Below, in pieces: positions 3,741-33,698 of a DNA stretch of 36,134 bases. Position 1 is the stretch's first letter, and each line of letters starts with the position of its first letter. The stretch is from Bacteroidia bacterium (GTDB lineage: Bacteria; Bacteroidota; Bacteroidia; Cytophagales; Cyclobacteriaceae): positions 1 through 36,134 of the forward strand of contig JAUIKU010000019.1 of NCBI GenBank assembly GCA_030430675.1, given 5' to 3'. The translations under genes were made by a program, and so were the position numbers. The notes below the pieces were generated by a model, which worked only from the letters and a program-made list of their open reading frames with translations, did no database searches and had not been told where the DNA came from.

Positions 3741-3767
3741 TCAAAAACAGAGACTGATAAAATTCTA

Positions 3768-4961
3768 ATGAAGATAGCTTATTTCACCCAGAACCCGGTT
3801 TCTGTTTCAGAAACCTTCTTTTCTTTTTTGGTAAATGGTTTGAAAAGGAAAGTGGGGGCGGATAATATTATCCATGTGGTTGGTTCTAAATCTGGCAATC
3901 GGCTTATCGAGAATACTTTTTTTTCCAATTTCAACTTAAACTTTTTAGGCCTGAGGCTCCTGTATGAATTTGAAGAGCGATCGGGACTGAATACCGATCT
4001 CGCGTTGAGCCTGGCTCAGAGAGTAGCCAGCAATAGGTTGAGAAAACTCAAGAATATGGGTATGCCAGACGTAGCGCATGTAGAGTATGGGAATACCGCT
4101 GTGAAGGTTTACAAGTTTCTCGTTAAAAATAAAATACCTTTTGTAGTTCACTACCATGGAAAGGATGCTTCCGCTGAATTTATTTCGCCAACCTACACCA
4201 GGGAGAGCAGGAAGTTGTTTCAAAAGGCGGCCTATGTGGTAACCGCCTCCGAACACGTGAAAAGATTACTGGTGATCAGGGGTTGTGATGAAGAAAAAAT
4301 CAAAGTGATCCGGTACGGGGTCGAAACCAATAAATTAGACCCGATGACCTGGGAGGAGAGATTTAAGAGCAATCCCTCTCTGGTGTTTTTGGGAAGGTTG
4401 ACAGAAAAGAAAAACCCGCTGGCATTGATCCATGCATTCAAGCTGGTTTTAAGGGAGAGTCCGGAAGCAACACTTAGTATCATTGGCACTGGTAAGCTGG
4501 AAGGAGAAGTTAAGGCAAGAATCAGGCAGCTGAACCTTGAGAAGTCGGTCCAAATGTTAGGAAGTATGCCGCAATCCGAAGCATTAAAGGTGGTAAATCG
4601 ACATTGGGTCTTTACTCAGCATAATGTAACAGCGGTAGATGGTGACCAGGAGGGCTACTCTCTGGCCCCCGCAGAAGCTGCTGCCCTGGAGATTCCGGTG
4701 GTTTCAACGCTGCACAATGGCATACCTGAACATGTTGTTGATGGCAGTACAGGGTATTTGGTAAGGGAGTTCGATTTCGAAACCATGGCGCAGCGAATCG
4801 TTGAGTTGTTGCAAGACCGCAATAAAATGGTGGCCTTTGGTAAAGCTGGTCGACGAAATATACAACAGTTAAACGATCCCGACAGGAGAGTAAACCAGAT
4901 GTATGAGTTGCTGGCCCGCACGGCCAACGAAGAAATTGAAACATTAAATACAGCGGTTTGA
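3768..4961 (+). CDS. GT4 family glycosyltransferase (GT-B fold)
   Basis: This 397-residue cytoplasmic protein has an N-terminal acceptor domain (about 1-200, including HYHGKDAS) and a C-terminal Glycos_transf_1 domain (about 205-380). The donor-binding part includes VFLGRLTEKKNP and SIIGTG. The EX7E signature of retaining GT4 enzymes is E295 to E303, in QEGYSLAPAEA. The GIPEHVVDG loop is also typical. It is expected to add a sugar to the lipid-linked repeat unit from a nucleotide-sugar donor. Its TGA at 4959-4961 overlaps the TTG start of the flippase gene, which implies translational coupling. The exact sugar is not predictable from sequence. Confidence 0.9.
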   Translation: MKIAYFTQNPVSVSETFFSFLVNGLKRKVGADNIIHVVGSKSGNRLIENTFFSNFNLNFLGLRLLYEFEERSGLNTDLALSLAQRVASNRLRKLKNMGMPDVAHVEYGNTAVKVYKFLVKNKIPFVVHYHGKDASAEFISPTYTRESRKLFQKAAYVVTASEHVKRLLVIRGCDEEKIKVIRYGVETNKLDPMTWEERFKSNPSLVFLGRLTEKKNPLALIHAFKLVLRESPEATLSIIGTGKLEGEVKARIRQLNLEKSVQMLGSMPQSEALKVVNRHWVFTQHNVTAVDGDQEGYSLAPAEAAALEIPVVSTLHNGIPEHVVDGSTGYLVREFDFETMAQRIVELLQDRNKMVAFGKAGRRNIQQLNDPDRRVNQMYELLARTANEEIETLNTAV

Positions 4962-6238
4962 GCTTAAGGCAGCAAGTCATTGGTGGTGTGAAGTGGACCA
5001 CGGTTGCCACAGTCACTCAGGCAATAGTAGGTATTCTGAAGCTTTCAGTACTGGCCAGGTACCTGGATAAGGCTGATTTTGGATTGATGGCACTTGTGAT
5101 GTTCATCCTGGGATTTATGCAGCTGTTCATGGATATGGGAATTTCCACAGCAATTCTGCACAAACAAGAAATTTCCAAAGAGGAATACGGCAGCCTTTAT
5201 TGGATAAATTTTATTTTCAGTGCTTTGCTCTACGGGATTGTGTTATTGTTGACGGCCCCAATAGCTCATTTTTATAATGAGCCGGAACTGTCGGAGTTGT
5301 TACCCATTATGGGTATCAGCCTGATCCTAGCGGCCATAGGTCGACAGTTTCGGACTATCGAGCAGAAGGACTTGAACTTCAAGTTTATTGCCATAGTTAC
5401 CATTATAGGTTCGGCACTTTCCCTAATCGCTGCCATCATACTGGCGGTAGAAGGTTATGGCGTGTATTCTCTGGTATATTCAGCTTTGATTCAGCATATA
5501 ATTACCAATGCAATATTCTTCTTTATGGGAGTTAAAAGTAACGGTTTGCTGATGCGGCTGAATTTTACAGAGACCAGGCCATTTCTTAAAATTGGATTGT
5601 ACCACGTGAGTGGACAGGTGATAAACTACTTCAACAGGGATCTGGATATTCTGCTTATTGGAAAGTTTTACGGAGCTGAGATACTGGGTGGATACAGCCT
5701 GGCAAAACAACTGGTAATCCGCCCATTTAGAATAATAAATCCCATTCTAACCCGGGTGGCGGCACCATTACTGGCCAAGTTTCAGGGAAACATGACGGAG
5801 TTGCGAAACAATTTTTTGAAATTGCTTAATGCGGTATCTTCGCTGATAGTTCCGATCTACATTGGCTTGATTGTGTTGGCCCCGATTGCGGTGAAGATCC
5901 TGTATGGTCCTGGCTTTGAGGATATCGTGCTGCTGGTCAGAATCCTATCGGTTTATATGATTTTCAGATCCATTGCCAATCCACTGGGATCATTGATAGT
6001 GGCCACTGGAAGAACAGATTTAGGTTTTTATTGGAATCTGGTAACTTTAGTAATTATTCCAGTTGCGGTCATTGTGGGGAGTCAATTCTCCATCGAGTGG
6101 GTGGCGGTGTGTTTAACAATTGCAGTAGCGTTGTTGTATATTCCCAGTTGGTGGTTCCTGGTGAGAAAGATGATTTCTGTACGACTAGGCACCTATCTGT
6201 TCTGGACCATCCCCGGTGTATCACTACTTAGGAAGTAA
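4958..6238 (+). CDS. wzx: Wzx-type polysaccharide flippase (MOP superfamily)
   Basis: This 426-residue polytopic protein belongs to the MOP/Polysacc_synt family (COG2244, WzxC/TuaB-like). The N-terminus RQQVIGGVKWTTVATVTQAI followed by LARYLDKADFGLMAL is characteristic of this subgroup, where the amphipathic start precedes TM1. It is expected to flip the undecaprenyl-pyrophosphate-linked repeat unit to the periplasm. The start is TTG at 4958, forming a TTGA overlap with the stop of the previous gene. The first in-frame ATG is around residue 43, inside the conserved N-terminal region, so TTG is strongly favoured. At 426 residues it is slightly short for the family, but the last segment still looks like a membrane helix. 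Confidence 0.9.
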   Translation: MSLRQQVIGGVKWTTVATVTQAIVGILKLSVLARYLDKADFGLMALVMFILGFMQLFMDMGISTAILHKQEISKEEYGSLYWINFIFSALLYGIVLLLTAPIAHFYNEPELSELLPIMGISLILAAIGRQFRTIEQKDLNFKFIAIVTIIGSALSLIAAIILAVEGYGVYSLVYSALIQHIITNAIFFFMGVKSNGLLMRLNFTETRPFLKIGLYHVSGQVINYFNRDLDILLIGKFYGAEILGGYSLAKQLVIRPFRIINPILTRVAAPLLAKFQGNMTELRNNFLKLLNAVSSLIVPIYIGLIVLAPIAVKILYGPGFEDIVLLVRILSVYMIFRSIANPLGSLIVATGRTDLGFYWNLVTLVIIPVAVIVGSQFSIEWVAVCLTIAVALLYIPSWWFLVRKMISVRLGTYLFWTIPGVSLLRK

Positions 6239-6248
6239 TTGTAGTGCA

Positions 6249-7601
6249 ATGAAGAAGTTTAATTTTTTTAGGGTCATACTGTTAACGGTTCTGGTGTTGC
6301 CGTCAATATACAGTTACTTCATGATATTACCGGATGCCACAAAATATTTACTGGACTTACTGCTTCTGGTTTACATCCTATACTTTCAAAGGGTAACCAG
6401 GCAGACCTCGGGATTCATTAAAATTTATTTAATCTACGTATCGGTGGTTTTGATACTGAACGTATGTAGTATCATCATCCACCATGAGAGTATCACCTAC
6501 CTGATACCCGAGTTCAGACGATTGATCATTCCACTATTGCTGTATTATGTGCTGGCAGATGTTTTCAGAAGTTATCCGGGGGCATCAGTTGATGGCCATA
6601 AGTTGTTTATGATGATCATGCTGATACAGATACCAGTGACCATAGTTCAAACAGTCTTTTTCTCCACATTTGTTAAACTGGGGCTCTTTTCTGGCTACAG
6701 ACATTATTTAGATGCTGCTACCGGTACATTAGGTGGTGCCGGACATACCTATTTGGGAGTACTGATTCCGCTCACATTCTTATACCTGTACGACTTAAAG
6801 CTATTTAAATACATGATACCCTTTGCTATTCCCCTAATCCTCATTAATTCAGGGGGAGGGATCGTGTTGTTCGCCATCATATTTGCAAGTATCGGCGTCT
6901 ACTCCCTATTTGTCGGGTCTATTAAACAAAGGGTGGGCATAGTAATTGGTATCGGGGTATTTTTAGGGCTACTGGTGGTATTTTCCCAAACATCATTTTT
7001 TAAAACCAATTTCTACTCCTATACCAGGTCATTTGTATTCTTCAGTGAGAACTACATAGAAGGAGGCAGGGAAACCTTTGTGGGACAAGAACACAAGATC
7101 AGTAGGATCAATGGATATAAATTCTTAAAAAAGAGGATGGATCGATATGATTTTGAACAGCTGTTTGGCCTGGGATTTGAATTCAAGAACAATAAGGTCG
7201 GCGGATATGCGCTTAGTTTCAAGAATGATGTAAATAGTATAATAGCAGAACGGGGATTTCTGGGTCTGGTAGTTTACGTCCTTTTCATGATTGCATTTTT
7301 GTGGTATATATACTCAATGCTTAAACACCACAAATACAACCGGATCTTTGTGAAGATGCTGTTTTTTGGGTCATTTTTCATAGCAGGTATTTACAATCAA
7401 ACCAGTCGCTCATTTACCATTTGGTTGGTGATGATCTTCTATATGGTGTTGCTGGAGAACAAAGGCCAGTATCAGGCGTTATTGGAAGACCTCGGTTTAC
7501 GCAGAATTAGAAGGAAAGAGCGCAAAAATCGGCGTAAGGGACATATAATACAGCCATCATTAATGCAAACGTCTTATGATTCCTCAGGAAGTCAGTCATA
7601 A
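6249..7601 (+). CDS. wzy: O-antigen polymerase/ligase-like membrane protein (Wzy-type)
   Basis: The protein has about 450 residues and roughly ten or more membrane helices, with larger polar loops around GHTYLG and around residues 260-340. The C-terminal tail is strongly basic (RRIRRKERKNRRK). Wzy polymerases are recognised by topology more than by sequence. A multipass protein of this size directly after a Wzx, with a large extracytoplasmic loop, fits a repeat-unit polymerase. I place the start at ATG 6249 (MKKFNFFRVILL). A GTG at 6216 is in frame but would overlap the wzx end by 23 nt and add a polar extension before the first helix. A role as O-antigen-ligase-like enzyme cannot be excluded. 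Confidence 0.75.
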   Translation: MKKFNFFRVILLTVLVLPSIYSYFMILPDATKYLLDLLLLVYILYFQRVTRQTSGFIKIYLIYVSVVLILNVCSIIIHHESITYLIPEFRRLIIPLLLYYVLADVFRSYPGASVDGHKLFMMIMLIQIPVTIVQTVFFSTFVKLGLFSGYRHYLDAATGTLGGAGHTYLGVLIPLTFLYLYDLKLFKYMIPFAIPLILINSGGGIVLFAIIFASIGVYSLFVGSIKQRVGIVIGIGVFLGLLVVFSQTSFFKTNFYSYTRSFVFFSENYIEGGRETFVGQEHKISRINGYKFLKKRMDRYDFEQLFGLGFEFKNNKVGGYALSFKNDVNSIIAERGFLGLVVYVLFMIAFLWYIYSMLKHHKYNRIFVKMLFFGSFFIAGIYNQTSRSFTIWLVMIFYMVLLENKGQYQALLEDLGLRRIRRKERKNRRKGHIIQPSLMQTSYDSSGSQS

Positions 7602-7643
7602 AATGTGCCAACGATACCAAGCTTGGGGCGTCAACCTAATGCA

Positions 7644-8537
7644 ATGCACTCAATGGTAAGTGTAGTTGTACCCACCTATAATCGCCCTCAGGGTCTTAAA
7701 ACCGCGCTTGAGAGTATTCTGAAACAAACCTATGGTAATCTGGAGGTTTTAGTGGTTAATGACAGTGAAGAGGAAGAGAGCGTAAAAAATGTCATTGCCG
7801 GATTTAATGACCCCAGGCTATATTATTTGAGGAATAAGCGTACCAAAGGTGCCAATGGTGCCAGAAATACCGGGATCTTAAATTCACATGGATCCCTAAT
7901 TGCCTTTATGGATGACGATGATGAATGGTTGCCCGATAAGCTTCAAAATCAGGTAGACTATCTAAGTGACCATACCAATCATGTTGGCTTGTTTAGTGCT
8001 TTTGAAATATATGAATCCGGCAAGTGGCAGGTTAAAAAACAAAAGATCTCCAGTCTGAGTTTACGTGACTGCTTATTGAATACAATTTCCATCGGGTCAA
8101 GCTCCAGCTTATTGTTCCGAAGGGAAATTTTTGATACAGCGGGTTTATGGGACGAGTCATTGGTGCGCCAGCAGGATAAGGAGCTGTTAGTAAGAATTTT
8201 GGTCCACGGAACTATTGGACATGATCAGCGAGTACTGCTGCGGGTAAATGGGCATAATGACCCGCACCCGTTAAAGTCAATCCCCGGACATGAAGTTTAT
8301 TATCAAAAGGTGAGTCCATACCTGGAGCTTCTGGATAATGACTCGCAAAGGAAATTTCATTCCTTTCATTTCAGGAGACTTTGTATGTATTATCTCAAAA
8401 TGGGCGATTATAAGACAGCTCTAGAGCTTTATAATAAAGCGCTCAAGTATCAAAAAGTCCATTTGCGGAAAGATGTGAAGAATTTCATCTATTTGTTGAA
8501 AAGCATTGTATCAACCAAACCCTCAGTTACAAATTGA
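7644..8537 (+). CDS. GT2 family glycosyltransferase (GT-A fold)
   Basis: This is a typical GT2 enzyme of about 297 residues. VSVVVPTYNRP lies at the N-terminus and GANGARNTGI in the nucleotide-binding half. MDDDDEW near residue 90 supplies the DXD-type metal/nucleotide motif, and QQDKELLVR in the acceptor half fits the ED/QD-type motif. A short TPR-like helix pair follows at about 250-275 (YYLKMGDYKTALELYNKAL). It inverts configuration while adding a sugar to the growing lipid-linked oligosaccharide. I chose ATG 7644 because GT2 proteins normally begin just before the first beta strand. A GTG at 7605, 3 nt after the preceding stop, is in frame and would add 13 residues; ATG 7653 is also possible. 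The stop overlaps the next gene as TTGA. Confidence 0.88.
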   Translation: MHSMVSVVVPTYNRPQGLKTALESILKQTYGNLEVLVVNDSEEEESVKNVIAGFNDPRLYYLRNKRTKGANGARNTGILNSHGSLIAFMDDDDEWLPDKLQNQVDYLSDHTNHVGLFSAFEIYESGKWQVKKQKISSLSLRDCLLNTISIGSSSSLLFRREIFDTAGLWDESLVRQQDKELLVRILVHGTIGHDQRVLLRVNGHNDPHPLKSIPGHEVYYQKVSPYLELLDNDSQRKFHSFHFRRLCMYYLKMGDYKTALELYNKALKYQKVHLRKDVKNFIYLLKSIVSTKPSVTN

Positions 8538-9586
8538 GAATACTGATTCTGGTCCCCGACCTTTCATCTCCGGGAGGAGTTTCTGCATTTTTTGATAGCC
8601 TGAAAGGACATTTCAAGCAACATGAAACTGTATACTTTACTCGGGGAAGTAGAGCGCAAGTTGGATATTTTTGGCAAGGATTTATCAAACTATTCGATTA
8701 CATACGATTTGTCTACCTGTTGTCAACGAAAAGTTTTGACCTTATTCATGTAAATACTTCGTTGGGCACCAAGAATTTACTGCGGGACCCTTGGTTTGTA
8801 TTGATAGCTAAAATGTTCAGCAAGAAAGTGGTGGTATTTTTTCATGGCTGGAAACCGGAGTGTGTAACTGCTAAAAATCGCTGGCTATTGAATTTAATGT
8901 TAAAGTCGGATGGCATTATTGTATTGGCCAGGGAGTTTCAGGATTTATTAAAGGAATGGAATTACAAAGGAAGTACTTTTATTGAGCGCACAGTTGTTTC
9001 CAAGGAGCTGGAAAATTTGCTGGATGAAGTCGATACCCGTGTATTATCTGGTGTATTAAATATTTTGTTTTTGAGTAGAATTGAGGTTCCGAAAGGCATT
9101 TATGAAAGTGTACAGGCTTTTCAGAAATTTCAGGTAGCTACGGAGATTCCCGTAAGGATGACCATTGCCGGTGACGGTTCTGAGTTGGAAAAAGTCCGGG
9201 AGTACATTTCCCGGGAGGGAATTCAGAATGTAAGGTTTGTCGGTTATGTATCAGGAGTAGATAAGGCAAAGGAGCTTAAAGAGGCCGATATTTACTTGTT
9301 ACCCAGCTATAGCGAAGGAATGCCTATTTCGGTCCTGGAGGCAATGCTTGCCGGTATGGCGGTGGTAACTCGCAGTACAGGCGGATTGGTGGACTTTTTT
9401 GATGAAAGTATGGGCAGAATAACCAGTTCGAAGGATCCCGAGGTAATTGCAAATATGTTAATAAGCTTAATTTCCAATCCAGGTACTTTATCGGAGATTT
9501 CTGCTTTCAATCGGAATTACGCAAAGCACAATTTTACGGTAGATCCTTTCATCAGAAGATTAGAAGCAATCTATTCGAAGATATGA
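8534..9586 (+). CDS. GT4 family glycosyltransferase (GT-B fold)
   Basis: The protein has 350 residues. The N-terminus ILILVPDLSSPGGVSAF is the GT-B acceptor-domain opening with the glycine loop, and FFHGWKPE sits in the mid N-domain. NILFLSRIEVPKGI starts the C-terminal donor domain at about residue 173. The EX7E motif is E261-E269 in SEGMPISVLEAML, followed by TRSTGG. This is a retaining sugar transferase of the EPS assembly line. The start is TTG at 8534 overlapping the previous TGA (TTGA). There is no ATG before residue 97, and the N-terminal strand would otherwise be lost. Its own stop overlaps the next gene as ATGA at 9583-9586. Confidence 0.9.
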   Translation: MRILILVPDLSSPGGVSAFFDSLKGHFKQHETVYFTRGSRAQVGYFWQGFIKLFDYIRFVYLLSTKSFDLIHVNTSLGTKNLLRDPWFVLIAKMFSKKVVVFFHGWKPECVTAKNRWLLNLMLKSDGIIVLAREFQDLLKEWNYKGSTFIERTVVSKELENLLDEVDTRVLSGVLNILFLSRIEVPKGIYESVQAFQKFQVATEIPVRMTIAGDGSELEKVREYISREGIQNVRFVGYVSGVDKAKELKEADIYLLPSYSEGMPISVLEAMLAGMAVVTRSTGGLVDFFDESMGRITSSKDPEVIANMLISLISNPGTLSEISAFNRNYAKHNFTVDPFIRRLEAIYSKI

Positions 9587-10560
9587 CCGAAATTATCTTT
9601 ATTACCGGTTTGCCCAGGAGTGGCACAAAACTCCTGAGGGATCTGATGAATCGGCATTCCAGGATATCAATTCCACGGATTGAAACGGTATTGTTTCCAT
9701 ACCTGGTAAATAAGTATGGATTTCAACTCGACCTCAACAAAAAGGAAAACTACCAAATGGTAAAAAGGGAGATTGAGCAATCAACTTTTTATCTGAATTT
9801 TTCAAAACACGGGACTGAGTTTGATTTAGACTCCATTCAAACAAATTATAGCAAAATCAACTGGGCAATAGTATTTGAGGAATTGCTCAAGTTTTATGGA
9901 CCAAAAAACTACAGTGAAGGTATAATTATTGGCGATAAAACACCGGGATACATTGACCATACCGCTCTACTGCTTAAAATATGGCCGGATGCCAAATTCA
10001 TACATATTGTTAGAGACCCTCGGGATTACCTGTGTTCAGTGAATCAGGTATGGAATAAAAACATATATCGTGCAGCCGACAGGTGGAATCGAACCATATT
10101 GCAGCTGGAACAAAGTGATTGGTTAACTGCCGAAAACTTGCATACTGTTTACTATGAAAAGTTACTGGACCAGCCAAGGAACACCTTAACAGAAATTTGT
10201 CAGTATCTGAACATAGGCTTTGAAGAATCCATGTTGACATTGGAGGAATCGTCTGAGAAATTCGGAGCGGCAAGTGGAGCCAGAGAAATAGTTCGAAGTA
10301 ATAAACAGAAGTATAAAGAAAGACTTAGTTCCGCTGAAATATTTAAAATTGAACAATTGGTATGTGGCGGGGCCAGACTCCATGGCTATAATTTGGAAAA
10401 CCCCGATGTTAAACCCAAACAGCTATCCCGGTGGGCATTAATGGGTCATAAGTATAAGGATGGCTTAAATGCGTTAAAATTTCATATTAAGAACCGTGGT
10501 ATTCTGGAGGGATCCAGGTACTTTTTCAAGTTGAACAGGACCAATATAAAGAGCACATAG
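9583..10560 (+). CDS. PAPS-dependent sulfotransferase (Sulfotransfer_3-like)
   Basis: This 325-residue protein has both PAPS-binding signatures of sulfotransferases. The 5'-phosphosulfate loop is GLPRSGTKLL at residues 9-18, and the 3'-phosphate region is HIVRDPRDYLCS with R144, D145 and P146. The central WxxA..RWN stretch and the later RSNKQKYKERLS tail match the PF13469 (Sulfotransfer_3) group that modifies polysaccharides, lipids or proteins. The predicted reaction transfers sulfate from PAPS to a hydroxyl or amino group of the repeat unit in the cytoplasm. It starts with ATG overlapping the previous stop by 4 nt and ends with TAG whose G is the first base of the next GTG start. No PAPS synthesis genes are in the window. 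The acceptor is unknown. Confidence 0.88.
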   Translation: MTEIIFITGLPRSGTKLLRDLMNRHSRISIPRIETVLFPYLVNKYGFQLDLNKKENYQMVKREIEQSTFYLNFSKHGTEFDLDSIQTNYSKINWAIVFEELLKFYGPKNYSEGIIIGDKTPGYIDHTALLLKIWPDAKFIHIVRDPRDYLCSVNQVWNKNIYRAADRWNRTILQLEQSDWLTAENLHTVYYEKLLDQPRNTLTEICQYLNIGFEESMLTLEESSEKFGAASGAREIVRSNKQKYKERLSSAEIFKIEQLVCGGARLHGYNLENPDVKPKQLSRWALMGHKYKDGLNALKFHIKNRGILEGSRYFFKLNRTNIKST

Positions 10561-11783
10561 TGATTAGTAAGGATCAATCGGATATATCTCAAATTGAAAC
10601 TGCTATCAGCAAGTTGATGGATCATATGGTCCGGAATTCATATCGCGGCTATGATCCATATGACGTGCTGAGGTCTCCCGTTTTTAAGTGGCCTGTTATG
10701 CGTAGCAGGTTCTTTCGTTTCGGTGCACAACAAGTGACCAAGCGGGTGCCGTTTAGCTTTCGCAAACTATTGCAGGTGCCCAGGGGATTGAACCCGGTAA
10801 CATTGGGACTATCGTTGCAGGCCTATACTTATCTCCGAGAAACTTATCCAGATAGAGCACCTCAATTTGACCGAGAGATCGATAAAATAACGTCTTTATT
10901 AAAAGAGGTACGTTCCAATGGCTATAGTGGAATATGTTGGGGATACGATTTTGATTGGGAAGCCCGGTACACCACTATCAATGCATATGTACCAACCAGC
11001 GTAGCTACTGGGATTATTACCAATGCCATGTTTGAGAATTATCTCTTTACCGGTAATAAGGAGTTACTGGATATGTGTAGAGATGCCTGTAAGTTTATAA
11101 TGCATGACCTAAAGAAATCTTATGAAGGTGATTGCTTTTGCTACTCTTACTCCCCGGTAGACAAGCAATTCGTCTACAATGCCTCCATGAAAGCAGCTCG
11201 CCTGTTGTCCCAGGTATATTCGGTGGATGGTGACACAAGTATGCAAGAGGAGGCCTCTAAGGCAGTGGAATACGTAGTTACCAATCAGCAAGCAGATGGA
11301 TCATGGTCTTATTCCAATCATGATGCCAGAACCTGGTGCGACAATTATCATACTGGCTATATTTTGGATTGCCTTGATAGTTATATTTCTAACACCGGGG
11401 ATCAACGCTTCCGGTCTTCATTGGAGAAAGGATTTAAGTTCTACAAAGATCATTTTTTCGAAGATGACTCAATTCCCAAGTTTTATCACAATAAGACCTT
11501 TCCCATTGACACTACTGCAGCAGCTCAGTCCATTCTCACTCTTTCCAGATTCGAAGAGGTTGAGTTGGCAAATAAAGTTGCATCGTGGTTTATTACGTCA
11601 ATGCAGTCCAAATCCGGAGCATTTTACTTTCGCAAGCATCGGCACTATATAGATCGGCAAATCTTTATGAGGTGGTCCAATGCATGGATGTTTGTGGGAC
11701 TTAGTTACTTACAGTATAAGCTAAAGCTAGCCAGTCACCCCCGGAATACTCAATTGAATACACAGCATAATAGTCAAGAGTAA
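10560..11783 (+). CDS. Uncharacterised alpha/alpha-toroid protein in sulfated-EPS operon
   Basis: I do not recognise a characterised enzyme. The 407-residue protein has no signal peptide or membrane helix. Helical hairpins repeat through its length in the style of (alpha/alpha)6 or terpenoid-cyclase-like toroids. Conserved-looking aromatic and acidic patches are CWGYDFDWEARY (about 138), DGSWSYSNHDARTWCDNYHTGYILDCLDSY (about 246-275, split here only for description) and MRWSNAWMFVGL near the C-terminus. Similar proteins occur in archaeal and bacterial EPS loci under unhelpful names. By fold analogy it could be an epimerase such as a glucuronyl C5-epimerase, a lyase or a hydrolase; this is inference. 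The start is GTG at 10560, sharing one base with the preceding TAG. It sits between two sulfotransferase genes, which suggests it acts on the same substrate. Confidence 0.6.
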   Translation: MISKDQSDISQIETAISKLMDHMVRNSYRGYDPYDVLRSPVFKWPVMRSRFFRFGAQQVTKRVPFSFRKLLQVPRGLNPVTLGLSLQAYTYLRETYPDRAPQFDREIDKITSLLKEVRSNGYSGICWGYDFDWEARYTTINAYVPTSVATGIITNAMFENYLFTGNKELLDMCRDACKFIMHDLKKSYEGDCFCYSYSPVDKQFVYNASMKAARLLSQVYSVDGDTSMQEEASKAVEYVVTNQQADGSWSYSNHDARTWCDNYHTGYILDCLDSYISNTGDQRFRSSLEKGFKFYKDHFFEDDSIPKFYHNKTFPIDTTAAAQSILTLSRFEEVELANKVASWFITSMQSKSGAFYFRKHRHYIDRQIFMRWSNAWMFVGLSYLQYKLKLASHPRNTQLNTQHNSQE

Positions 11784-11785
11784 GT

Positions 11786-12505
11786 ATGAAGAAGAACATT
11801 TGTTTTATACATATTCCGAAGTGCGGTGGGACATCAATCAGGTCGTCGATGAAGAAGAGTTGGTTGAATTTGGCGTTGAATCGTAAAGTAAGCCTCAATC
11901 ATATAGCTTCCTCCAAAGCTGCAGACTCCCTGGGTAAGGAAGTATTGGCTTACCGGGAGGAGTTGCTTAGGTACTACCTTTATGATACTAAAGCCAAGTA
12001 CGTATTTGGACACTTCAAATGCACCTCTCAAACAAGAAATTTATTTCAGGATGACTGGACTTTTGTTACCTTGATAAGGGATCCGGTCAAACGATGGCTT
12101 TCCCATTATTTTTTCGACAAGTTTCGCGAGAAGAATATTGACTATAATAAAACCAGTCTGGATTTGGAAGAGTACCTGCATTCGGAGGAAGGTAAGCGCA
12201 ATGCCAATATGTTCCTAAGGCATTTTTCGTCTTACCAGCCAGGAATGAAGGTGCAGGATGATTTTGTTGAGGAAGCTATAGATAATATTAGAAATTTTGA
12301 TGTATTTGGTGTTTTAGAGGATATGACCTCCTTTGCAAAGTCCTATCGGGTTTCCACCGGAGTTAGCCTGAATATTGGGAAGTCCAATAAAAATCCCAAA
12401 AAGGGCTATGATCAGGATGCCATACCCTCTGCATTGATGCAGCAAATTGAAGAATATAACCAACACGATACAATTATTTATCAACAGATAAAAAACAGTC
12501 TTTAA
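11786..12505 (+). CDS. Sulfotransferase family 2-like (heparan/chondroitin-type) protein
   Basis: This 239-residue protein opens with FIHIPKCGGTSIRS. Residues 8-19 give the HIPKCGGTS 5'-phosphosulfate loop typical of PF03567, the family of heparan sulfate 2-O- and chondroitin/dermatan sulfotransferases and their bacterial relatives. The 3'-phosphate motif is LIRDPVKRWLSHYF, with R98, D99 and P100 and a serine at 104. It is compact compared with the animal Golgi enzymes and has no membrane anchor, so it should act in the cytoplasm on nucleotide- or lipid-linked sugar. It is the second sulfotransferase in the operon but from a different family from the one at 9583, implying two sulfation positions or two acceptors. 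Only 2 nt separate it from the preceding gene. Confidence 0.87.
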   Translation: MKKNICFIHIPKCGGTSIRSSMKKSWLNLALNRKVSLNHIASSKAADSLGKEVLAYREELLRYYLYDTKAKYVFGHFKCTSQTRNLFQDDWTFVTLIRDPVKRWLSHYFFDKFREKNIDYNKTSLDLEEYLHSEEGKRNANMFLRHFSSYQPGMKVQDDFVEEAIDNIRNFDVFGVLEDMTSFAKSYRVSTGVSLNIGKSNKNPKKGYDQDAIPSALMQQIEEYNQHDTIIYQQIKNSL

Positions 12506-12519
12506 ATAACACTTTAACC

Positions 12520-13617
12520 ATGAAGGTTTTAATTTATCTCAACCACCCGGCTCACTTTCATTTATTCAAAAATGTATTTATCGATCTTAAATCAAAAGGA
12601 ATTGATTTCCAGGTGGTTTGTAAGAAAAAGGATGTTCTTGAAGACTTGCTGAAGGGCTCCGGAACACCTTATATAAACGTCCAGGTTAAAGAACGAACCA
12701 CTGCCCTTTGGTCCATGATTAAAAGTGTAACCCGACGGGGGTTGCGAATTTTAAAGATTGTCCGTGACTATAAGCCTGATTTAATGATAGGCACTGCCTT
12801 TGAGCTTGCTCATATAGGAAAAATAACCGGCATCCCGTTTGTCAGCGTCAATGAGGACGATGCGGAGATGATACCACTATGGAGTAAGTACTCCTATCCC
12901 TGGGCAACCTACATTCTATCCCCCTATGTATGTGACAACGGAAAGTGGAATAATAAAACACTCAACTACGACAGTTATCATGAATTGGCTTATTTGCATC
13001 CTGATCACTTTATTCCCGATAGCGCGGTAGTGGAAAAATACTTCTCCACCAGAAATCCCTATGTGATCATGCGTTTTGCCCAGTTAACGGCACATCACGA
13101 TAGTGGCATCAGCGGAATAAACCTGGAGATTTCTATGGAGTTAGTGAAAATATTAAAACCACATGCTGATATCTATATTACTTCAGAGCGGCCGCTGGAA
13201 AAGGAGCTGGAACCGTATCGATTACAAATAGATCCCCTGGATATGCATCATGTAATGGCATATGCTACGCTCTATATTGGTGACAGTCAAACCATGGCGG
13301 CAGAGGCCGGGGTGCTGGGTACTCCGTTTATCCGTTTCAATGACTTTGTGGGAAAATTGGGTTATCTGGCGGAACTGGAGGATAAATATCAACTGGGATA
13401 TGGAATCGTTCCGTCTAACGTTCAGAAGCTTTATGAGACTACTGAGAAGTTGATTAACGACCCTAATCTTAAAGAGCTGTTCCAGGTGAGAAGACAAAAG
13501 ATGCTTGCGGAAAAATTGAATACTGCGGAATTTTTAAGTTGGTTTATCGAGAATTATCCGGATAGTGTTGATAAGATAAAAACCAAGAGCAGTGCCAAAA
13601 AACATCTATTGGTTTGA
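12520..13617 (+). CDS. DUF354 family GT-B-like protein
   Basis: The 365-residue protein matches the DUF354 group (PF04007), proteins with a GT-B-like fold found in EPS and archaeal polysaccharide loci. Visible signatures are the N-terminal IYLNHPAHFHLFKN, the PDLMIGTAFELAHIGK segment at about residue 86, VNEDDAE, and late in the protein a GDSQTMAAEAGVLGTPFIRFND motif that corresponds to the donor-site region of UDP-GlcNAc epimerase/GT-B enzymes. It is probably a sugar transferase or nucleotide-sugar enzyme of the pathway, but no biochemical activity is firmly assigned to the family. The ATG is 14 nt after the sulfotransferase stop; its TGA overlaps the next TTG start (TTGA). Confidence 0.8.
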   Translation: MKVLIYLNHPAHFHLFKNVFIDLKSKGIDFQVVCKKKDVLEDLLKGSGTPYINVQVKERTTALWSMIKSVTRRGLRILKIVRDYKPDLMIGTAFELAHIGKITGIPFVSVNEDDAEMIPLWSKYSYPWATYILSPYVCDNGKWNNKTLNYDSYHELAYLHPDHFIPDSAVVEKYFSTRNPYVIMRFAQLTAHHDSGISGINLEISMELVKILKPHADIYITSERPLEKELEPYRLQIDPLDMHHVMAYATLYIGDSQTMAAEAGVLGTPFIRFNDFVGKLGYLAELEDKYQLGYGIVPSNVQKLYETTEKLINDPNLKELFQVRRQKMLAEKLNTAEFLSWFIENYPDSVDKIKTKSSAKKHLLV

Positions 13618-15332
13618 ACTCATTTTTTAGGCGGGATTTTAGTACTAATTCGGTCATTTTTACTACCCTCAGTGCGGTATTGATTTCCCTTGCCGTATAT
13701 CACTTTGGTACGGGAAATCACTCTGTGATAATTCCCTTTCTAAAAGTAACCATTAACCCGGATTTATACCCCCACGATTATTTTGTAGACCAGGTGGAGT
13801 ATTACCACACGTTTCTTTGGGATGTATTAGCTTTTTTGGTAACATCTACCGGGCTCAGCATAGAATGGGTATTCTTTATCATGTACCTGGTTTGCATGAT
13901 AGCTTCCACCACTGCCATTTACGGTATCGCCGTGACCTTATTTGAAAACCCCAAAGTTGGTTATCTGGCGGTATTTATTCAATTGGTTTATTTCATACAC
14001 AATGCAGGCGTGGGGGATGAGTTCTTAATGGACCATTTGTTGAAAGAAAGTCAGGTTGCATTGCCACTGCTGTTATTTGCGGTTTACTTATTTCTGAATA
14101 AATCCTACAAACTCTCCTATTTTTTACTGGGATTGGGTTTTTTGATTCATGCCTTAAGCGCAATATATGTAATCGTTTTCCTCACCATATCGCTGCTTAT
14201 AACCGGATTTGCTGACTGGAAAAAAGCAGTAATGCCCCTGGTGATACTGGCGCTGGTTTCAATCCCGCTGGTAATGAGAAAGTTACAACATTCACCCGAC
14301 TCCATGCATATGTTTGAGGCTTACTTGGACTGGGTTGAGATGCTGAGAGCCCGGTATGCGGGTCATTCCTTTCCCTTTAGTTGGAGCATATGGAAATACG
14401 TTAAAGCAGCTGTATTGATCGGTCTTTTTATCTTTACCTGGAGATACAAGCCAAAAGATGACCTTCACAATGTGGTTAAATATGGGACCTTCACGGTTTT
14501 CGGATTGTGGTTACTGGGAGTAGTATTTACCGAGCTTTTGCCACTGCCCATTTTTATTCAATTACAACTTTTCAGGAGTTATACGTTGGTAAGTTTGTTC
14601 GCAGTTGTTTACTGGTCAAATTTCTTCGTATTATCCATGGAAAGTCCAATTTCACTGTGGAGGAAATGTTTGATTCTGGCTGCCACTATTGGCTTGATCA
14701 TAATGCTCCCTTCAGAAGGAAATCCCATAATTAATGAGATTCACCGGTCACCGGGTATCATTTGGAAGAATAATTATTTGTATATAATCATATTTGGGCT
14801 GATGCTAATGGTTTTTTCCACCTGGTTCCACAAGAGCCTGACCTTGCGCCACTGGTCCCTGATGTTATTGATATTAATGGTTTTGATCACTTCCAGAAAG
14901 CTGATGAAAGAAGGCCTGAGTATCAGTTCTCAATTGCCACATCATTGGGTGGATGTACAGCATTGGGCAAGAAACAATAGCAAACAAGACGATCTGTTTA
15001 TTGTGCCTCCGGACATGCGAGGGTTCAGGATTGACAGCGAGCGCTCCATTGTGGGAGATTATAAGGATGGAATCCAGATGTACTTCAACCCCGAATTTGG
15101 TTACCAATGGAAGCAGAGAATGGAACTACTGGGAGCAGGGAGTACCATGGCAGAAACAGATTTAGGACGAACATATTTAACCATGGATGAAGAGCGGATA
15201 ACAGCCATATCCGATAGCTTTTCAGAACAGCACACCACTATCTATATGGTATCATCGCAAGCTCGGAGTCCTGGGCTTGATTTCCCGTTGGTTTATGAAA
15301 ATGAGCAATATACAGTTCATAAGGTACGATAG
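13614..15332 (+). CDS. Large polytopic membrane protein, GT-C-like (DUF6798-like)
   Basis: The protein has 572 residues with about ten or more membrane helices in residues 13-430 and a soluble C-terminal part (about 435-572). The first extracytoplasmic loop contains NPDLYPHDYFVDQVEYYHTF, whose acidic residues (D in YPHDYF, or the DQVE pair) are where GT-C enzymes carry the catalytic base. The C-terminal segment FIVPPDMRGFRIDSERSIVGDYKDG resembles hypothetical membrane proteins annotated DUF6798. I infer a GT-C-like or other membrane glycan enzyme; the function is unproven. It starts at TTG 13614, overlapping the previous TGA. It is the second such protein in the operon, and 104 nt separate it from the phosphotransferase gene. 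Confidence 0.6.
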   Translation: MNSFFRRDFSTNSVIFTTLSAVLISLAVYHFGTGNHSVIIPFLKVTINPDLYPHDYFVDQVEYYHTFLWDVLAFLVTSTGLSIEWVFFIMYLVCMIASTTAIYGIAVTLFENPKVGYLAVFIQLVYFIHNAGVGDEFLMDHLLKESQVALPLLLFAVYLFLNKSYKLSYFLLGLGFLIHALSAIYVIVFLTISLLITGFADWKKAVMPLVILALVSIPLVMRKLQHSPDSMHMFEAYLDWVEMLRARYAGHSFPFSWSIWKYVKAAVLIGLFIFTWRYKPKDDLHNVVKYGTFTVFGLWLLGVVFTELLPLPIFIQLQLFRSYTLVSLFAVVYWSNFFVLSMESPISLWRKCLILAATIGLIIMLPSEGNPIINEIHRSPGIIWKNNYLYIIIFGLMLMVFSTWFHKSLTLRHWSLMLLILMVLITSRKLMKEGLSISSQLPHHWVDVQHWARNNSKQDDLFIVPPDMRGFRIDSERSIVGDYKDGIQMYFNPEFGYQWKQRMELLGAGSTMAETDLGRTYLTMDEERITAISDSFSEQHTTIYMVSSQARSPGLDFPLVYENEQYTVHKVR

Positions 15333-15350
15333 TAACTATATCTCTTTTAT

Positions 15351-15384
15351 TTGCCAACCGGACTATTTTTAATGATTACCTTTG
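15351..15384 (+). promoter_or_regulatory. Candidate Bacteroidota-type internal promoter
   Basis: TTG at 15351-15353 and TACCTTTG at 15377-15384 match the Flavobacterium-type consensus TTG/TAnnTTTG, with a 23-nt spacer at the long end of the accepted range. It lies in the only gap of about 100 nt in the operon, 52 nt before the phosphotransferase ATG. It would let the initiating enzyme be transcribed separately. Confidence 0.4.
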
Positions 15385-15436
15385 CCACTATTGTTTTTGA
15401 ATAACTAAAGGCAGGTATCCTGCAAATTGCTAAAGT

Positions 15437-16810
15437 ATGAAGACTCGGGAGGTATTGTTTATTCTGCTGGTAGTCGACCTGGTATTTTTAAACCTTTCCT
15501 TTTTAATAGTTGCATATTTACATTACGGACTTGGATACAACCGTTTTGATGTAATAACCGATACGTTCTGGCTTCTCAATTTTAGCTGGATCGTGACATT
15601 TTTAGTGTTTGTCACGGAAGATCCTCAAATGGAGAAACCACTTTCCAGAAGGATCATTGATCACGGCAAGAAATTCCTTTTATTTTTGGCGATTGCTTCG
15701 ATCCTGGCCTTAGGATTGAATATTTCCGACATTTCCAGGATTACATTCTTTGCTACCAGCACCTATTTTTTCATATTTTCATTCTTCTTTTCCAACTTTT
15801 TCCTCAACTACATTCGCATAAAAAAGGCCAAGCTCCACAACTACACGGAAGTTCTGGTAGTTGGAGCGGGTAAGTTAGGCCTGGAAGTAAAGAATTATTT
15901 CGACCAGAATCCCCATAGAGGAAAAGTTGTGGGCTTTCTGGACGACTTTAAGCTGCATTCGGATAAAGCGAATATTCTGGGCAGGGTATCGGATTTCCAG
16001 GAGGTCTATAATAACAATCGGTTCGACCAACTAATTATTGCTATTCCTATCAACAGCCGGGACAAGATTCGAAAACTAATTGACCTGGCGGAATTTAATG
16101 GAGTAAGACCCAGGGTTATTCCCGACTACTATAATCTGTTCAATAGAAACTTTGAAACTCAGCTGCTGGGTGAACTTCCGGTTGTGAATATCCGCGAATT
16201 TCCTCTGGAGATTTATGCCAACAGGTTCTGGAAAAGAGTTTTTGATCTGGTGTTTTCTACCACTGCTTTGATACTAGCCTCCCCCGTACTACTCCTGATT
16301 GCTATAGCGATTAAGCTGGACAGCAAAGGACCGGTCTTTTACAAGCCGGTAAGGCTGGGTCGAAGAGGAGAGGAGTTCGTTTTATACAAGTTCCGGTCAA
16401 TGTACAATAACGATGATCCCAGGATGGGCCAACAGTCGACCAGAGAAGACGATGACAGGATCACCAGAGTGGGTCGATTTATCAGGAAATATAGTCTGGA
16501 TGAACTGCCGCAGTTTATCAATGTGATCAAACACGATATGTCTGTGGTTGGACCGCGTCCTCATCGGGTAGTGCTCAATAAGATTCTACAGGAAAAATCC
16601 AGCAACTACCTGGTACGGCATTACGTACTGCCCGGGGTAACAGGTTGGGCTCAGGTAAATGGCTGGCGGGGTCCCACGGATACCAGGATACAGTATAAAG
16701 GGCGTACATTACACGACCTTTGGTATATAGAGAACTGGACCTTCCTGCTGGACCTTTACATTATTGTTCTTACTATTTTCGGTGTGAAATCCAGGAAGAA
16801 TGCCTTTTAG
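15437..16810 (+). CDS. Polyprenyl-phosphate sugar-1-phosphate transferase (WcaJ/PssY-like initiating enzyme)
   Basis: This 457-residue enzyme starts repeat-unit synthesis by moving a sugar-1-phosphate from a UDP-sugar to undecaprenyl phosphate at the cytoplasmic membrane. The N-terminal four to five helices are followed by a CoA_binding_3/Rossmann-like domain (VLVVGAGKLGLEV at about 140). The catalytic bacterial sugar-transferase domain (PF02397) starts at about 262 with a membrane segment. Key motifs are YKFRSM (about 318), the acidic SLDELPQ (about 353), VVGPRP (about 371) and GVTGWAQVNGWRG (about 400). This is the long WcaJ-type architecture; glucose or galactose is the usual sugar but cannot be read off. 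It is the last gene of the operon and converges on the wzc-like gene, with the stop codons 8 nt apart. Confidence 0.92.
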   Translation: MKTREVLFILLVVDLVFLNLSFLIVAYLHYGLGYNRFDVITDTFWLLNFSWIVTFLVFVTEDPQMEKPLSRRIIDHGKKFLLFLAIASILALGLNISDISRITFFATSTYFFIFSFFFSNFFLNYIRIKKAKLHNYTEVLVVGAGKLGLEVKNYFDQNPHRGKVVGFLDDFKLHSDKANILGRVSDFQEVYNNNRFDQLIIAIPINSRDKIRKLIDLAEFNGVRPRVIPDYYNLFNRNFETQLLGELPVVNIREFPLEIYANRFWKRVFDLVFSTTALILASPVLLLIAIAIKLDSKGPVFYKPVRLGRRGEEFVLYKFRSMYNNDDPRMGQQSTREDDDRITRVGRFIRKYSLDELPQFINVIKHDMSVVGPRPHRVVLNKILQEKSSNYLVRHYVLPGVTGWAQVNGWRGPTDTRIQYKGRTLHDLWYIENWTFLLDLYIIVLTIFGVKSRKNAF

Positions 16811-16826
16811 CTGTACTGCTAAAGGG
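16803..16826. terminator. Candidate bidirectional terminator overlapping both stop codons
   Basis: Bases 16803-16811 (ccttttagc) pair with 16818-16826 (gctaaaggg) over a 6-nt loop. The stem has nine base pairs, one of them G-U. It covers the TAG of the phosphotransferase gene and the stop of the convergent wzc-like gene. Only short T-rich tracts follow on the plus strand, so factor-independent termination is plausible but not certain. Confidence 0.45.
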
Positions 16827-19224
16827 TGACTTTCTGTTTCTTGGTTAGCCTGCTCTTGTAGTAATTGTTATAGTACTTCCCATAACCTCCATATTCGGCT
16901 TTGCTATAGTTGACAGCATTGAACAACAGGGCCAGATTGTTCAATTTGCGTTGCGAATAGATGTTATTCAAGTCCGCTATGTGCTTTTTAAGGGTATAGT
17001 TTTCGCGGGCAATGAAAATATTGACATCACATTTGTCCATTAATTCGAGGCCATCTGAAAGAATGCCGATTGGGGGCGTATCAATGATGATATAGTCGAA
17101 GTTAGATTTGGCAGAGCTCAATAACTGCTGAAACTTCCCGTTAATAAGCAGCTCTGATGGATTTGGTGGAATACCCCCTGAGGTAATAATATACAAGTTG
17201 GGGATATCGGTAGTCTTGATAATTCCTGTTTCGGTGGAAAGACCGGCCAGGAAATCACTGAGTCCTATACCTTCCTCTACTCCAAATTCTGAATAATCTT
17301 TGTCCTTTCTCATATCGGCATCCACCAGCAAGACCTTCTTGCCAAAGTTAGAAAAGACTACTGCCAGGTTATTGGCACAAAATGATTTGCCCTCCGCACT
17401 TACCGAAGAGGTAAGCAGGAAGGATTTACCTTCTGTTTCAGTGGATCCCAGCATATATCTTAGGTTGGATCTGATGGTACGGAAAGTCTCGGTGACCTCA
17501 GTTCTTACCTGTCCGTTTGTAATCAGGTTGTATTTACTTTTATTCTTGGCTATCATACCCAGATATGGGATCTGAGAAATGCTGAACAATTCATCTTTGG
17601 ATCGCACCTTGTTGTTCAAAAGGTCAGAAATGATTAGTACGCCAACCGGAAATACCAACCCAACTATTATTGCCAGCGCATAATTAAATAATGGTTTGGG
17701 CCTGATGGGTTTGTAGGGTGTCCTGGCAGAATTGATAACCCGGATATCCACACTGTTGGAGGCCTTGGCGATACCTGCTTCTGCTCTTTTTTGCATAAGA
17801 AACAGATACAAGTCTTCGCTTAAATTATAATTACGCTGAATTTTGATATACTCCCTTTCCGCCGTAGGCAAATTCTGCAGGGTACTCCTCATACCACCAA
17901 TCTGACTATTGATATTACCCATTGCCAATTGATTGGATGTTTTAAGGCTCTTTATGTTTTCAAGAACACTGGTTTTCAGAATTTCAATTCTCTGCTGATA
18001 TGATCGCACCACGGGATTTTTACTAGTGGGCCCGATGGTTTGTATCTGTAATTGCAGACTTACCAGATCTTGTATGGATCTGTTCAGTGCCGGATCATCG
18101 ATACCGATTGAAGAAGGGACAACAATCTCATCCAGGTTATTTTGGTTAATGTAACCTTCCAATTCAGTGAGGTAACGATTGTTTAGAATAAGTTCACTGC
18201 GGGCGGCTTCGAACTCCTGACTTTGTTGAAGGTAATCGCTTCCATCACTACTAATAGTTAGATCGGTATTTGATTTCTTAAATGATTCCAATCGGTTTTC
18301 AACTGAGCTCAAGGAATCGCTCATTAGCAGAATCTGGGTATCGATAAACCCAATAGTTTTTTCCGCGGTATTGTTCTTTCGATTTAATTCATCGTTGATA
18401 TATTTCTCAACCAATTTATTGGTAAAGTCACTGGCTTTTTGGTTGTGCGTACAAACCGTCGAAATCTCCAGGATTGACGCCTCCATTGATAAAGGGGTAA
18501 TGCTCAGGTTGGTTATATACTCAAAGGCCTGACTACCATAGTCCTGAATTTTGAAAAGAATTGGACCTTCTGGCACCGTGGCACCTAATAGATCAATCCG
18601 GAATCGAAACCCGTTAAAATCAAGATCCTCTCCAAAGGAAAATGTCCGGTTGGCAAACAGATCTTCCAGTTGATTGCTTTTAACCAGGTTCTTTACCTTC
18701 TCCAGGATGCCGTCACTGACTACTTCCAGTTTGAAAGAGCTATTGCTAACAAAGTTGCATCTGATCAGTCCCTGATAATAGATCATGGAGGATTCATCGA
18801 CGGTGACCTTGATGGGACTTGTTTTGTACAACTCTTCTTTTCTGACATTGTCCTCCAGATAATAGGTTACGTTCAGTTCCAGGTCTCTGAGAGTGTTTTC
18901 AACGTTGTCGAAGGATTGCAGTACAAATGCCTCATTTTCCAGGTTCATAGACATGGTTCCGAAGAACTCCTGTCCATAAAGCAGTTCGGAAACGGCATTG
19001 TTTACATCTTTTGGTTCCGTGACCAATAAAGAAGTAGTGGCCTTGTACAGAGGTTGCGACAGCCAGTTCACCAGGAATGCACATAACAAACTCAGGATAA
19101 GGCAGACCAGGAAGCCAGGCCACCAGTCAACTAACTTATCAACCATAGACCGCAGGTTAACGGTCTCTGACTCATAGCCATAGGTGTCGGTATTGTTCTG
19201 ATTTTTACTGTTCAGCATTTTCAT
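16819..19224 (-). CDS. wzc: Wzc-type polysaccharide co-polymerase and BY-kinase
   Basis: This 801-residue inner-membrane protein controls EPS chain length and export. It has a Wzz domain after TM1 (about 33-55), a long periplasmic coiled-coil region (about 285-480), and TM2 (about 520-545) after the proline-rich RTPYKPIRPKP. The cytoplasmic tyrosine-kinase domain follows. Walker A is SVSAEGKSF (about 605-616), Walker A' is LLVDADMRKD (about 632-641) and Walker B is YIIIDTPP (about 711). The C-terminus has a tyrosine cluster (seven Tyr between YSKAEYGG and NNYYK), the autophosphorylation tail of Wzc/BY-kinases. ATG 19224 is 19 nt after the wza-like stop, so the pair is one operon. No Wzb-type phosphatase is in the window. 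Confidence 0.94.
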   Translation of the reverse strand: MKMLNSKNQNNTDTYGYESETVNLRSMVDKLVDWWPGFLVCLILSLLCAFLVNWLSQPLYKATTSLLVTEPKDVNNAVSELLYGQEFFGTMSMNLENEAFVLQSFDNVENTLRDLELNVTYYLEDNVRKEELYKTSPIKVTVDESSMIYYQGLIRCNFVSNSSFKLEVVSDGILEKVKNLVKSNQLEDLFANRTFSFGEDLDFNGFRFRIDLLGATVPEGPILFKIQDYGSQAFEYITNLSITPLSMEASILEISTVCTHNQKASDFTNKLVEKYINDELNRKNNTAEKTIGFIDTQILLMSDSLSSVENRLESFKKSNTDLTISSDGSDYLQQSQEFEAARSELILNNRYLTELEGYINQNNLDEIVVPSSIGIDDPALNRSIQDLVSLQLQIQTIGPTSKNPVVRSYQQRIEILKTSVLENIKSLKTSNQLAMGNINSQIGGMRSTLQNLPTAEREYIKIQRNYNLSEDLYLFLMQKRAEAGIAKASNSVDIRVINSARTPYKPIRPKPLFNYALAIIVGLVFPVGVLIISDLLNNKVRSKDELFSISQIPYLGMIAKNKSKYNLITNGQVRTEVTETFRTIRSNLRYMLGSTETEGKSFLLTSSVSAEGKSFCANNLAVVFSNFGKKVLLVDADMRKDKDYSEFGVEEGIGLSDFLAGLSTETGIIKTTDIPNLYIITSGGIPPNPSELLINGKFQQLLSSAKSNFDYIIIDTPPIGILSDGLELMDKCDVNIFIARENYTLKKHIADLNNIYSQRKLNNLALLFNAVNYSKAEYGGYGKYYNNYYKSRLTKKQKVTL

Positions 19225-19243
19225 CGCTTAAGCCTGTTAAAAC

Positions 19244-20008
19244 TTAATCACCGGTTAAGTTATCAATGGCCAATATCAATGTTACCCCAGTGGCAATAGC
19301 CGACAGGATCAAAGCAATATTATTGGATGAATTCCTGCGAAAATTTTTGTTTTTCAACTGGTCCACGATAATAACATCGTTGGGTCTTATATAGTAAAAA
19401 TTGGAATTGGGCAGATTCGGGTCTAATAAATTTACTCCATGTAAGGTAGAAATACCATTATCCGATCGCAAAACTTTCACGGTTTCGTAATTGGCAAATT
19501 CGGTCAGTCCGCCTGCCATACCAACCGCTTCCAAAATATTGATCCGGTCTTCCAGAATCTCATATTTTCCTTGTCGCAAGACCTCTCCAACCACAGAAAA
19601 GTGAAAACTTACCAAACGGACGTCCACTGAAGGTGTATCAAGATAATCAACCAAAACGGTCCTGATTTTTTCCTGTGCTTCCCGTGATGTCAATCCGGAA
19701 ATGCGCACCGCACCAACTGCTGGTAGTACTACTGTACCATCATCCCCGATAAGGTTACCGGTCAATAACGGATCAGTCCGTAAATCGATATCTGATAGTT
19801 CACTAAAAAAATCAAACTCACCGGGAGTAAGGCTGTACACCTTTATCTGTACAATGTCACCAGGCTGAAGTCTATATTCCGATATGTTTTCGGTAAAAGT
19901 TCGGCCGGTGGTAGTCTCGTTAAAATACGTTTGCTTTCGAGCTGGTGCACATGAAAAAATCAATCCAATGAGTATTACACAGGAAGCAGAGAGTAAAAAT
20001 GATTTCAA
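19244..20008 (-). CDS. wza: Wza-type polysaccharide export lipoprotein
   Basis: This 254-residue outer-membrane exporter begins with a lipoprotein signal ending at LIFSC (Cys20). A Poly_export domain (PF02563) follows at about 42-130, with RLQPGDIVQIKVYSL and the DGTVVLPAVG strand. An SLBB domain sits at about 135-215 (FSVVGEVLRQGKYEI, ILEAVGMAGGL). A C-terminal hydrophobic helix at about 228-250 may replace the Wza C-terminal barrel helix, which is common in Bacteroidota. The start must be TTG at 20008: a TAA at 20018-20020 is in frame upstream, and no ATG precedes the signal peptide. It is transcribed divergently from the giant dehydrogenase gene, and a TAATTTTG element lies 41 nt upstream. 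Confidence 0.93.
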   Translation of the reverse strand: MKSFLLSASCVILIGLIFSCAPARKQTYFNETTTGRTFTENISEYRLQPGDIVQIKVYSLTPGEFDFFSELSDIDLRTDPLLTGNLIGDDGTVVLPAVGAVRISGLTSREAQEKIRTVLVDYLDTPSVDVRLVSFHFSVVGEVLRQGKYEILEDRINILEAVGMAGGLTEFANYETVKVLRSDNGISTLHGVNLLDPNLPNSNFYYIRPNDVIIVDQLKNKNFRRNSSNNIALILSAIATGVTLILAIDNLTGD

Positions 20009-20272: not shown

Positions 20273-20420
20273 TGGGTTACCAAATCGAAGTTATAGCAAT
20301 TAAACAGTAACTTGCATCGATTTTCAACCTTTAATTAATAAAACAAGGAACAAACTATCGACCACACAACAAAAACTTTTTATCGAATAAACTAACGTCG
20401 TAAATCTTCTGACCATATTG

Positions 20421-33680: not shown

Positions 33681-33698
33681 CCAGGAAGCTCTTCTGAA

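Follow-up and report, generated by a model that had tools for sequence, protein, structure and literature searches.

Two predicted sulfotransferases of different families in a Wzx/Wzy-type polysaccharide operon of a Cyclobacteriaceae bacterium point to a probable sulfated exopolysaccharide

Sulfated polysaccharides have been called rare in bacteria outside cyanobacteria (PMC13390465). Synechan, a chemically analysed sulfated exopolysaccharide (EPS), is made by the Wzx/Wzy-type xss cluster of Synechocystis PCC 6803 (PMC8205485), and the sulfated polymers of Vibrio sp. KMM 8419 and Cobetia marina KMM 1449 have solved structures (PMC11641403, PMC11766843). The Bacteroidota are known mostly as degraders of sulfated polymers. 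Here we describe a polysaccharide operon of a Bacteroidia bacterium (Cyclobacteriaceae) on contig JAUIKU010000019.1, positions 1-36,134 of the forward strand; this whole stretch of 36,134 nucleotides is referred to as the window. At 9583-12505 the operon contains three plus-strand open reading frames (ORFs) of 325, 407 and 239 residues, separated by intergenic gaps of -1 and +2 bases, which are named ST3, TOR and ST2 below. The donor of the two predicted sulfotransferases would be 3′-phosphoadenosine-5′-phosphosulfate (PAPS).

9583..10560, + strand: ST3, Sulfotransfer_3 PAPS-dependent sulfotransferase, predicted cytoplasmic (PF13469, 110.5 bits)
10560..11783, + strand: TOR, (alpha/alpha)6-toroid protein, predicted sugar-active (AlphaFold2 model and VIA-align)
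11786..12505, + strand: ST2, Sulfotransfer_2 or heparan sulfate (HS) 2-O/6-O-sulfotransferase-like protein, predicted cytoplasmic (PF03567, 23.3 bits, and family profile)

It is reasonable to suggest, with a rough probability of 0.78, that this operon makes an EPS or capsule of Wzx/Wzy type, with sulfation of the repeat unit preceding export. The score of ST3 lies far above the Pfam gathering cut-off of 27 and places it in the Sulfotransfer_3 family as an ordinary member; the protein carries the motifs GLPRSGT, forming the 5′-phosphosulfate-binding (5′-PSB) loop, and RDPRD. ST2 carries HIPKCGGTS and RDPVKRW. The sequence-only reading had placed these two motif pairs in two different sulfotransferase families, and both statements hold for the first and third ORF, the assignment of ST2 becoming firm through the profile of its relatives. 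The best solved relatives of ST3 are the CurM-type and tyrosylprotein sulfotransferases, reached at about 1e-9 with the single sequence and 1.8e-15 with a profile.

A profile of nine ST2 homologues matched the HS 6-O-sulfotransferase 5t03 at 8.1e-12 and the HS 2-O-sulfotransferase 4ndz at 1.4e-7; six of the nine homologues match PF03567 individually (best 1.5e-9), and three match Gal-3-O-sulfotransferase. Residues K12, H76, R98 and S106 of ST2 align with K83, H142, R164 and S172 of the HS 2-O-sulfotransferase HS2ST, where we take the chain to be counted so that K385 = K83. The nine homologues all share H76, R98 and S106 and have Lys or Arg at the position of K12, and the H142A variant of HS2ST retains less than 1% activity (PMC6094399). 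Because of these profile matches and conserved residues, ST2 is accepted, on sequence comparison, as a genuine sulfotransferase of carbohydrate type. The positions of the P-loop Lys, the catalytic His and the Arg and Ser that bind the 3′-phosphate are kept, and both HS enzymes are matched by the profile; however, those are Golgi membrane enzymes acting on polymer, whereas ST2 is predicted to be soluble and is similar at the profile level only. Hydrophobic segments are absent from both ST3 and ST2.

Relatives of both proteins occur in glycan loci. A three-row ST2 profile recovered relatives in 6 further genomes among 395 sampled from the phylum, and a relative with 37% identity is encoded by a different genome of the same family (G059). 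Glycosyltransferase, Wzx, WcaJ or Wza-like genes surround the ST2 relatives in six loci (L090, L091, L109, L110, L111 and L112), and L109 and L112 hold Sulfotransfer_3-type genes in addition. In the Wzx-bearing locus L112 (9546-10200) the ST2 relative is split across two frames, which reflects either a sequencing error or a pseudogene. Within the order, ST3 relatives occupy the glycan loci L131, L133, L134 and L135; in the first of these, from Cytophagales (L131:1456-14275), five sulfotransferase genes precede a sulfatase gene and another, sulfatase-like ORF.

The operon recurs in a second Cyclobacteriaceae metagenome-assembled genome (MAG; contig JANQPK010000092.1, locus L016) with the same gene order from a neighbouring polysaccharide lyase gene through Wzc, at 63-91% identity. 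Individual values are 68% for ST3, 68.5% for the membrane protein encoded at 2232-3740 and 72% for the PF14099 lyase, and both sulfotransferases keep their motifs. Each ORF compared between the window and L016 is open, nucleotide identity is 64-75%, silent sites are saturated and the nonsynonymous divergence (dN) is 0.07-0.28, which indicates that selection has maintained both sulfotransferases; the ratio of dN to synonymous divergence (dS) is omitted because dS is saturated. The synteny supports, at the sequence level, a probable co-function of the operon genes.

The source genome was examined by family searches, and the PAPS synthesis genes for which the sequence-only reading had suggested looking are present as two routes. 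One consists of cysC-cysD-cysN plus a divergent CysQ-like phosphatase gene (L001, L015), and the other is a Sat-type ATP sulfurylase fused to an adenosine-5′-phosphosulfate (APS) kinase (L014:6113-7825). A cysH gene was also found. Four other Sulfotransfer_3 matches are encoded in the genome, one of them, a Sulfotransfer_1/3 protein, within a second Wzc-bearing polysaccharide locus (L012:1-16000).

The three genes lie in a same-strand run from 2232 to 16810, with gaps of -23 to +27 bases except for a single one, of 104 bases, that precedes the gene of the priming transferase. The other features of the operon and its borders are as follows.

1..1824, - strand: secreted polysaccharide lyase with PKD and SprB repeats, extending past the left window edge (PF14099, 95.6 bits)
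2232..3740, + strand: polytopic membrane protein without family match, candidate for a GT-C glycosyltransferase, ligase or alternative Wzy (68.5% identity in L016)
3768..4961, + strand: GT4 glycosyltransferase (PF00534, 100 bits)
4958..6238, + strand: Wzx flippase of the MOP family (PF13440, 248 bits; NF007773, 378 bits, cut-off 273)
6216..7601, + strand: polytopic Wzy polymerase candidate (follows Wzx; about 10 hydrophobic segments)
7605..8537, + strand: GT2 glycosyltransferase (PF00535, 112.7 bits)
8534..9586, + strand: GT4 glycosyltransferase (PF00534, 96.7 bits)
12520..13617, + strand: DUF354 GT-B-like protein, the usual TOR neighbour (PF04007, 37.9 bits)
13614..15332, + strand: polytopic membrane protein with DUF6798 (PF20604, 48.5 bits)
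15437..16810, + strand: WcaJ-type undecaprenyl-phosphate sugar-phosphate (priming) transferase (TIGR03025, 390.8 bits, over cut-off)
16819..19224, - strand: Wzc-type co-polymerase / tyrosine autokinase (PF02706, PF13807; TIGR01007, 160.6 bits, over cut-off)
19244..20008, - strand: Wza-type outer-membrane polysaccharide export protein (PF02563, 64.5 bits)

The operon thus contains two GT4 and one GT2 glycosyltransferases besides the DUF354 GT-B-like protein, and the Wzc and Wza genes adjoin and face it (16819-20008, - strand). The priming transferase also reaches 399.4 bits with TIGR03023, slightly below the cut-off of 410.75. Three polytopic proteins other than Wzx are encoded in the operon, and position alone makes the one at 6216-7601 the best candidate for Wzy. 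Of the tightly packed operon with Wzx, Wzy and glycosyltransferases proposed from the letters, the packing, Wzx and the glycosyltransferases were borne out, whereas Wzy is a candidate suggested by position and hydrophobic segments.

In the proposed pathway, the WcaJ-type transferase would prime undecaprenyl phosphate with a hexose phosphate, and the glycosyltransferases would elongate the primed undecaprenyl-linked sugar. ST3 and ST2 would each transfer the sulfuryl group of PAPS to the undecaprenyl-linked oligosaccharide in the cytoplasm, ST2 probably in the manner of the HS 2-O/6-O-sulfotransferases, with His76 as base and in-line transfer. The sulfated unit could then be flipped by Wzx, polymerised by Wzy and exported by Wzc and Wza. 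PAPS would be supplied by CysD/N with CysC and by the Sat-APS kinase fusion, and the by-product 3′-phosphoadenosine-5′-phosphate (PAP) would be removed by CysQ; TOR may perform a separate cytoplasmic sugar-tailoring step. We infer the sulfation of this polymer, its timing, order and acceptors; cytoplasmic sulfation before Wzx is suggested because the enzymes are predicted to be soluble and the donor is cytosolic. Precedents for such a pathway are synechan, the wps-1 cluster of Actinoplanes and the capsule of Vibrio sp. KMM 8419.

Several observations weigh against this interpretation. The nearest solved relatives of ST3 act on polyketides or protein tyrosines and not on glycans, so that they give no firm guide to its acceptor, and PF13469 also takes in lipid and small-molecule enzymes. 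Taken alone, ST2 exceeds the PF03567 cut-off of 22 by just 1.3 bits, a marginal score, and its AlphaFold2 model, built from two sequences, is unusable (predicted local distance difference test, pLDDT, 34.5). The Wzy candidate has no Pfam or NCBIfam family match, and none of the cys genes lies inside the operon itself. A genome of the same genus is without ST2 and TOR, which indicates that the locus is strain-variable; capsule and EPS loci are usually variable.

Some of these points would also fit a case in which only one of the two enzymes sulfates the polysaccharide, and the other is inactive or has a different acceptor such as a lipid, a surface protein tyrosine or a small molecule. The kinship of ST3 with tyrosylprotein and CurM sulfotransferases and the near-cut-off score of ST2 speak for it, as does the deletion of xssE in the synechan producer, which left bloom formation and EPS accumulation not substantially changed (PMC8205485). 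Nevertheless, both proteins and their motifs are conserved in L016 and relatives of both occupy glycan loci, so that we consider a single active enzyme doubtful, if still a serious alternative. That the two enzymes act instead on a lipopolysaccharide (LPS)-like O-antigen or a glycolipid built by the same route appears unlikely: Wzx/Wzy machinery is common to O-antigen and EPS and a ligase could not be distinguished among the polytopic ORFs, but the adjoining Wzc autokinase and Wza exporter genes are marks of EPS or capsule export.

An unsulfated product, with sulfotransferase-like proteins that are inactive or use another group donor, is very improbable. Family names are no proof of activity, but the PAPS motifs are intact, the proteins are conserved despite saturated silent sites, and the genome encodes two PAPS-making routes. 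The least credence is given to a heparan-like uronic-acid polymer on the Wzx/Wzy route, a Bacteroidota analogue of glycosaminoglycans in which ST2 would be a uronyl or hexosamine O-sulfotransferase, TOR an epimerase and the PF14099 protein a dedicated depolymerase.

The AlphaFold2 model of TOR is an (alpha/alpha)6 toroid (pLDDT 94.8; predicted template modelling score, pTM, 0.93). Its tied top fold matches in VIA-align, each at about 10% identity, are the GH76 mannanase 4v1s (Z 32.1, 3.0 Å, 327 residues) and the cellobiose 2-epimerase 3wkf (Z 31.9, root-mean-square deviation 3.6, 341 residues). Heparan C5-epimerase and other toroid families were not among these top matches, which does not exclude them. 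TOR has no GH76 match in Pfam and none to the N-acyl-glucosamine 2-epimerase (AGE) family, and it reaches 22.1 bits with GH88, below the cut-off of 26.6; the one match over cut-off in Pfam and NCBIfam is a partial one to Pec_lyase (25.4 bits, best stretch 44 residues), which we attribute to repeats common to toroid folds. Among the invariant residues are D32, D35, W127-G128-Y129, F131, W133, D261, R371-W372 and H264, the single invariant His.

TOR relatives were found in 68 loci in one scan (L016-L083), mostly from Bacteroidota, Ignavibacteria, Calditrichota and Chlorobi-group MAGs. About two thirds have TOR following a fused zinc-dehydrogenase/GFO-IDH oxidoreductase of about 710 residues (45 instances at position -1), whose place is occupied by ST3 in the window; UDP-glucose dehydrogenase precedes TOR in Aquiflexum-type loci, and DUF354 lies nearby in 46 of the 68, usually on the far side of TOR from the oxidoreductase. 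A heparinase-type epimerase identity for the 710-residue neighbour was ruled out by Pfam. Apart from the window itself, sulfotransferases stand beside TOR in one related locus, the syntenic L016. This indicates that TOR is a general, uncharacterised enzyme of polysaccharide loci, and its role as a sulfation partner, a link implied by the sequence-only reading, is not supported, since the other 67 loci have no adjacent sulfotransferases. On its modelled fold, TOR is most likely a cytoplasmic epimerase- or glycosidase-like (alpha/alpha)6 enzyme; that it is specifically an epimerase is a tentative possibility.

The PF14099 lyase beside the operon may depolymerise its product; the lyase domain had no match among solved-structure sequences. 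Por-type sorting domains are present among the window proteins and, together with the nearest relatives, indicate a source in or near Cyclobacteriaceae. Two adjacent, very large secreted proteins at 20418-32590 (1409 and 2580 residues), both with GSDH, PKD and CBM6 domains, are likely paralogues. Also outside the operon, 32715-35270 encodes a sugar-nucleotide epimerase together with another WcaJ-like priming transferase. An Rfam scan of the window gave no match, and promoter-like sites occur in it at chance frequency.

Our literature search, within the papers that it covered, found none on sulfated-EPS operons in Cytophagales, and the operon plan, already known from synechan and wps-1, seems to be undescribed in Bacteroidota. 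The sequence-only statement that defined pathways are few is fair, but Wzx/Wzy clusters with two sulfotransferases had already been described (PMC8205485, PMC13390465). A syntenic two-sulfotransferase operon, together with relatives in several Bacteroidota glycan loci, suggests that the trait is under-recorded, and the predicted soluble bacterial HS2ST-like enzymes could serve for making sulfated glycans.

Among the described systems, Pontiella sulfatireligans carries a putative sulfotransferase gene within a cluster of glycosyltransferase genes, and a sulfated glycosaminoglycan-like EPS was detected, but it belongs to the Kiritimatiellae, its sulfation is mainly N-sulfation and its enzymes are of PF13469 only (PMC7356697). 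The capsule clusters of Vibrio sp. KMM 8419 and Cobetia marina KMM 1449 likewise hold sulfotransferase genes among glycan genes, and PAPS genes (PMC11641403, PMC11766843); they rely on ABC-transporter export with cys genes in the cluster, whereas the window operon is of Wzx/Wzy type with cys genes elsewhere in the genome. Closer in plan is wps-1 of Actinoplanes missouriensis, a Wzx/Wzy cluster with predicted sulfation whose two sulfotransferases belong to different families, one being of HS type, although this actinomycete cluster includes a GH26-type enzyme, a methyltransferase and a kinase and is required for sporangium formation (PMC13390465). The synechan cluster differs in being cyanobacterial, in its own XssS/R/Q regulators and in its eight glycosyltransferase genes, and the available part of its report mentions no toroid enzyme; it shares the Wzx/Wzy type and two sulfotransferases of distinct subfamilies, XssA and XssE (PMC8205485). 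The parts of a synechan-type cluster, namely Wzx, priming transferase, glycosyltransferases, Wzc, Wza and sulfotransferases, are all found together in the Cyclobacteriaceae locus.

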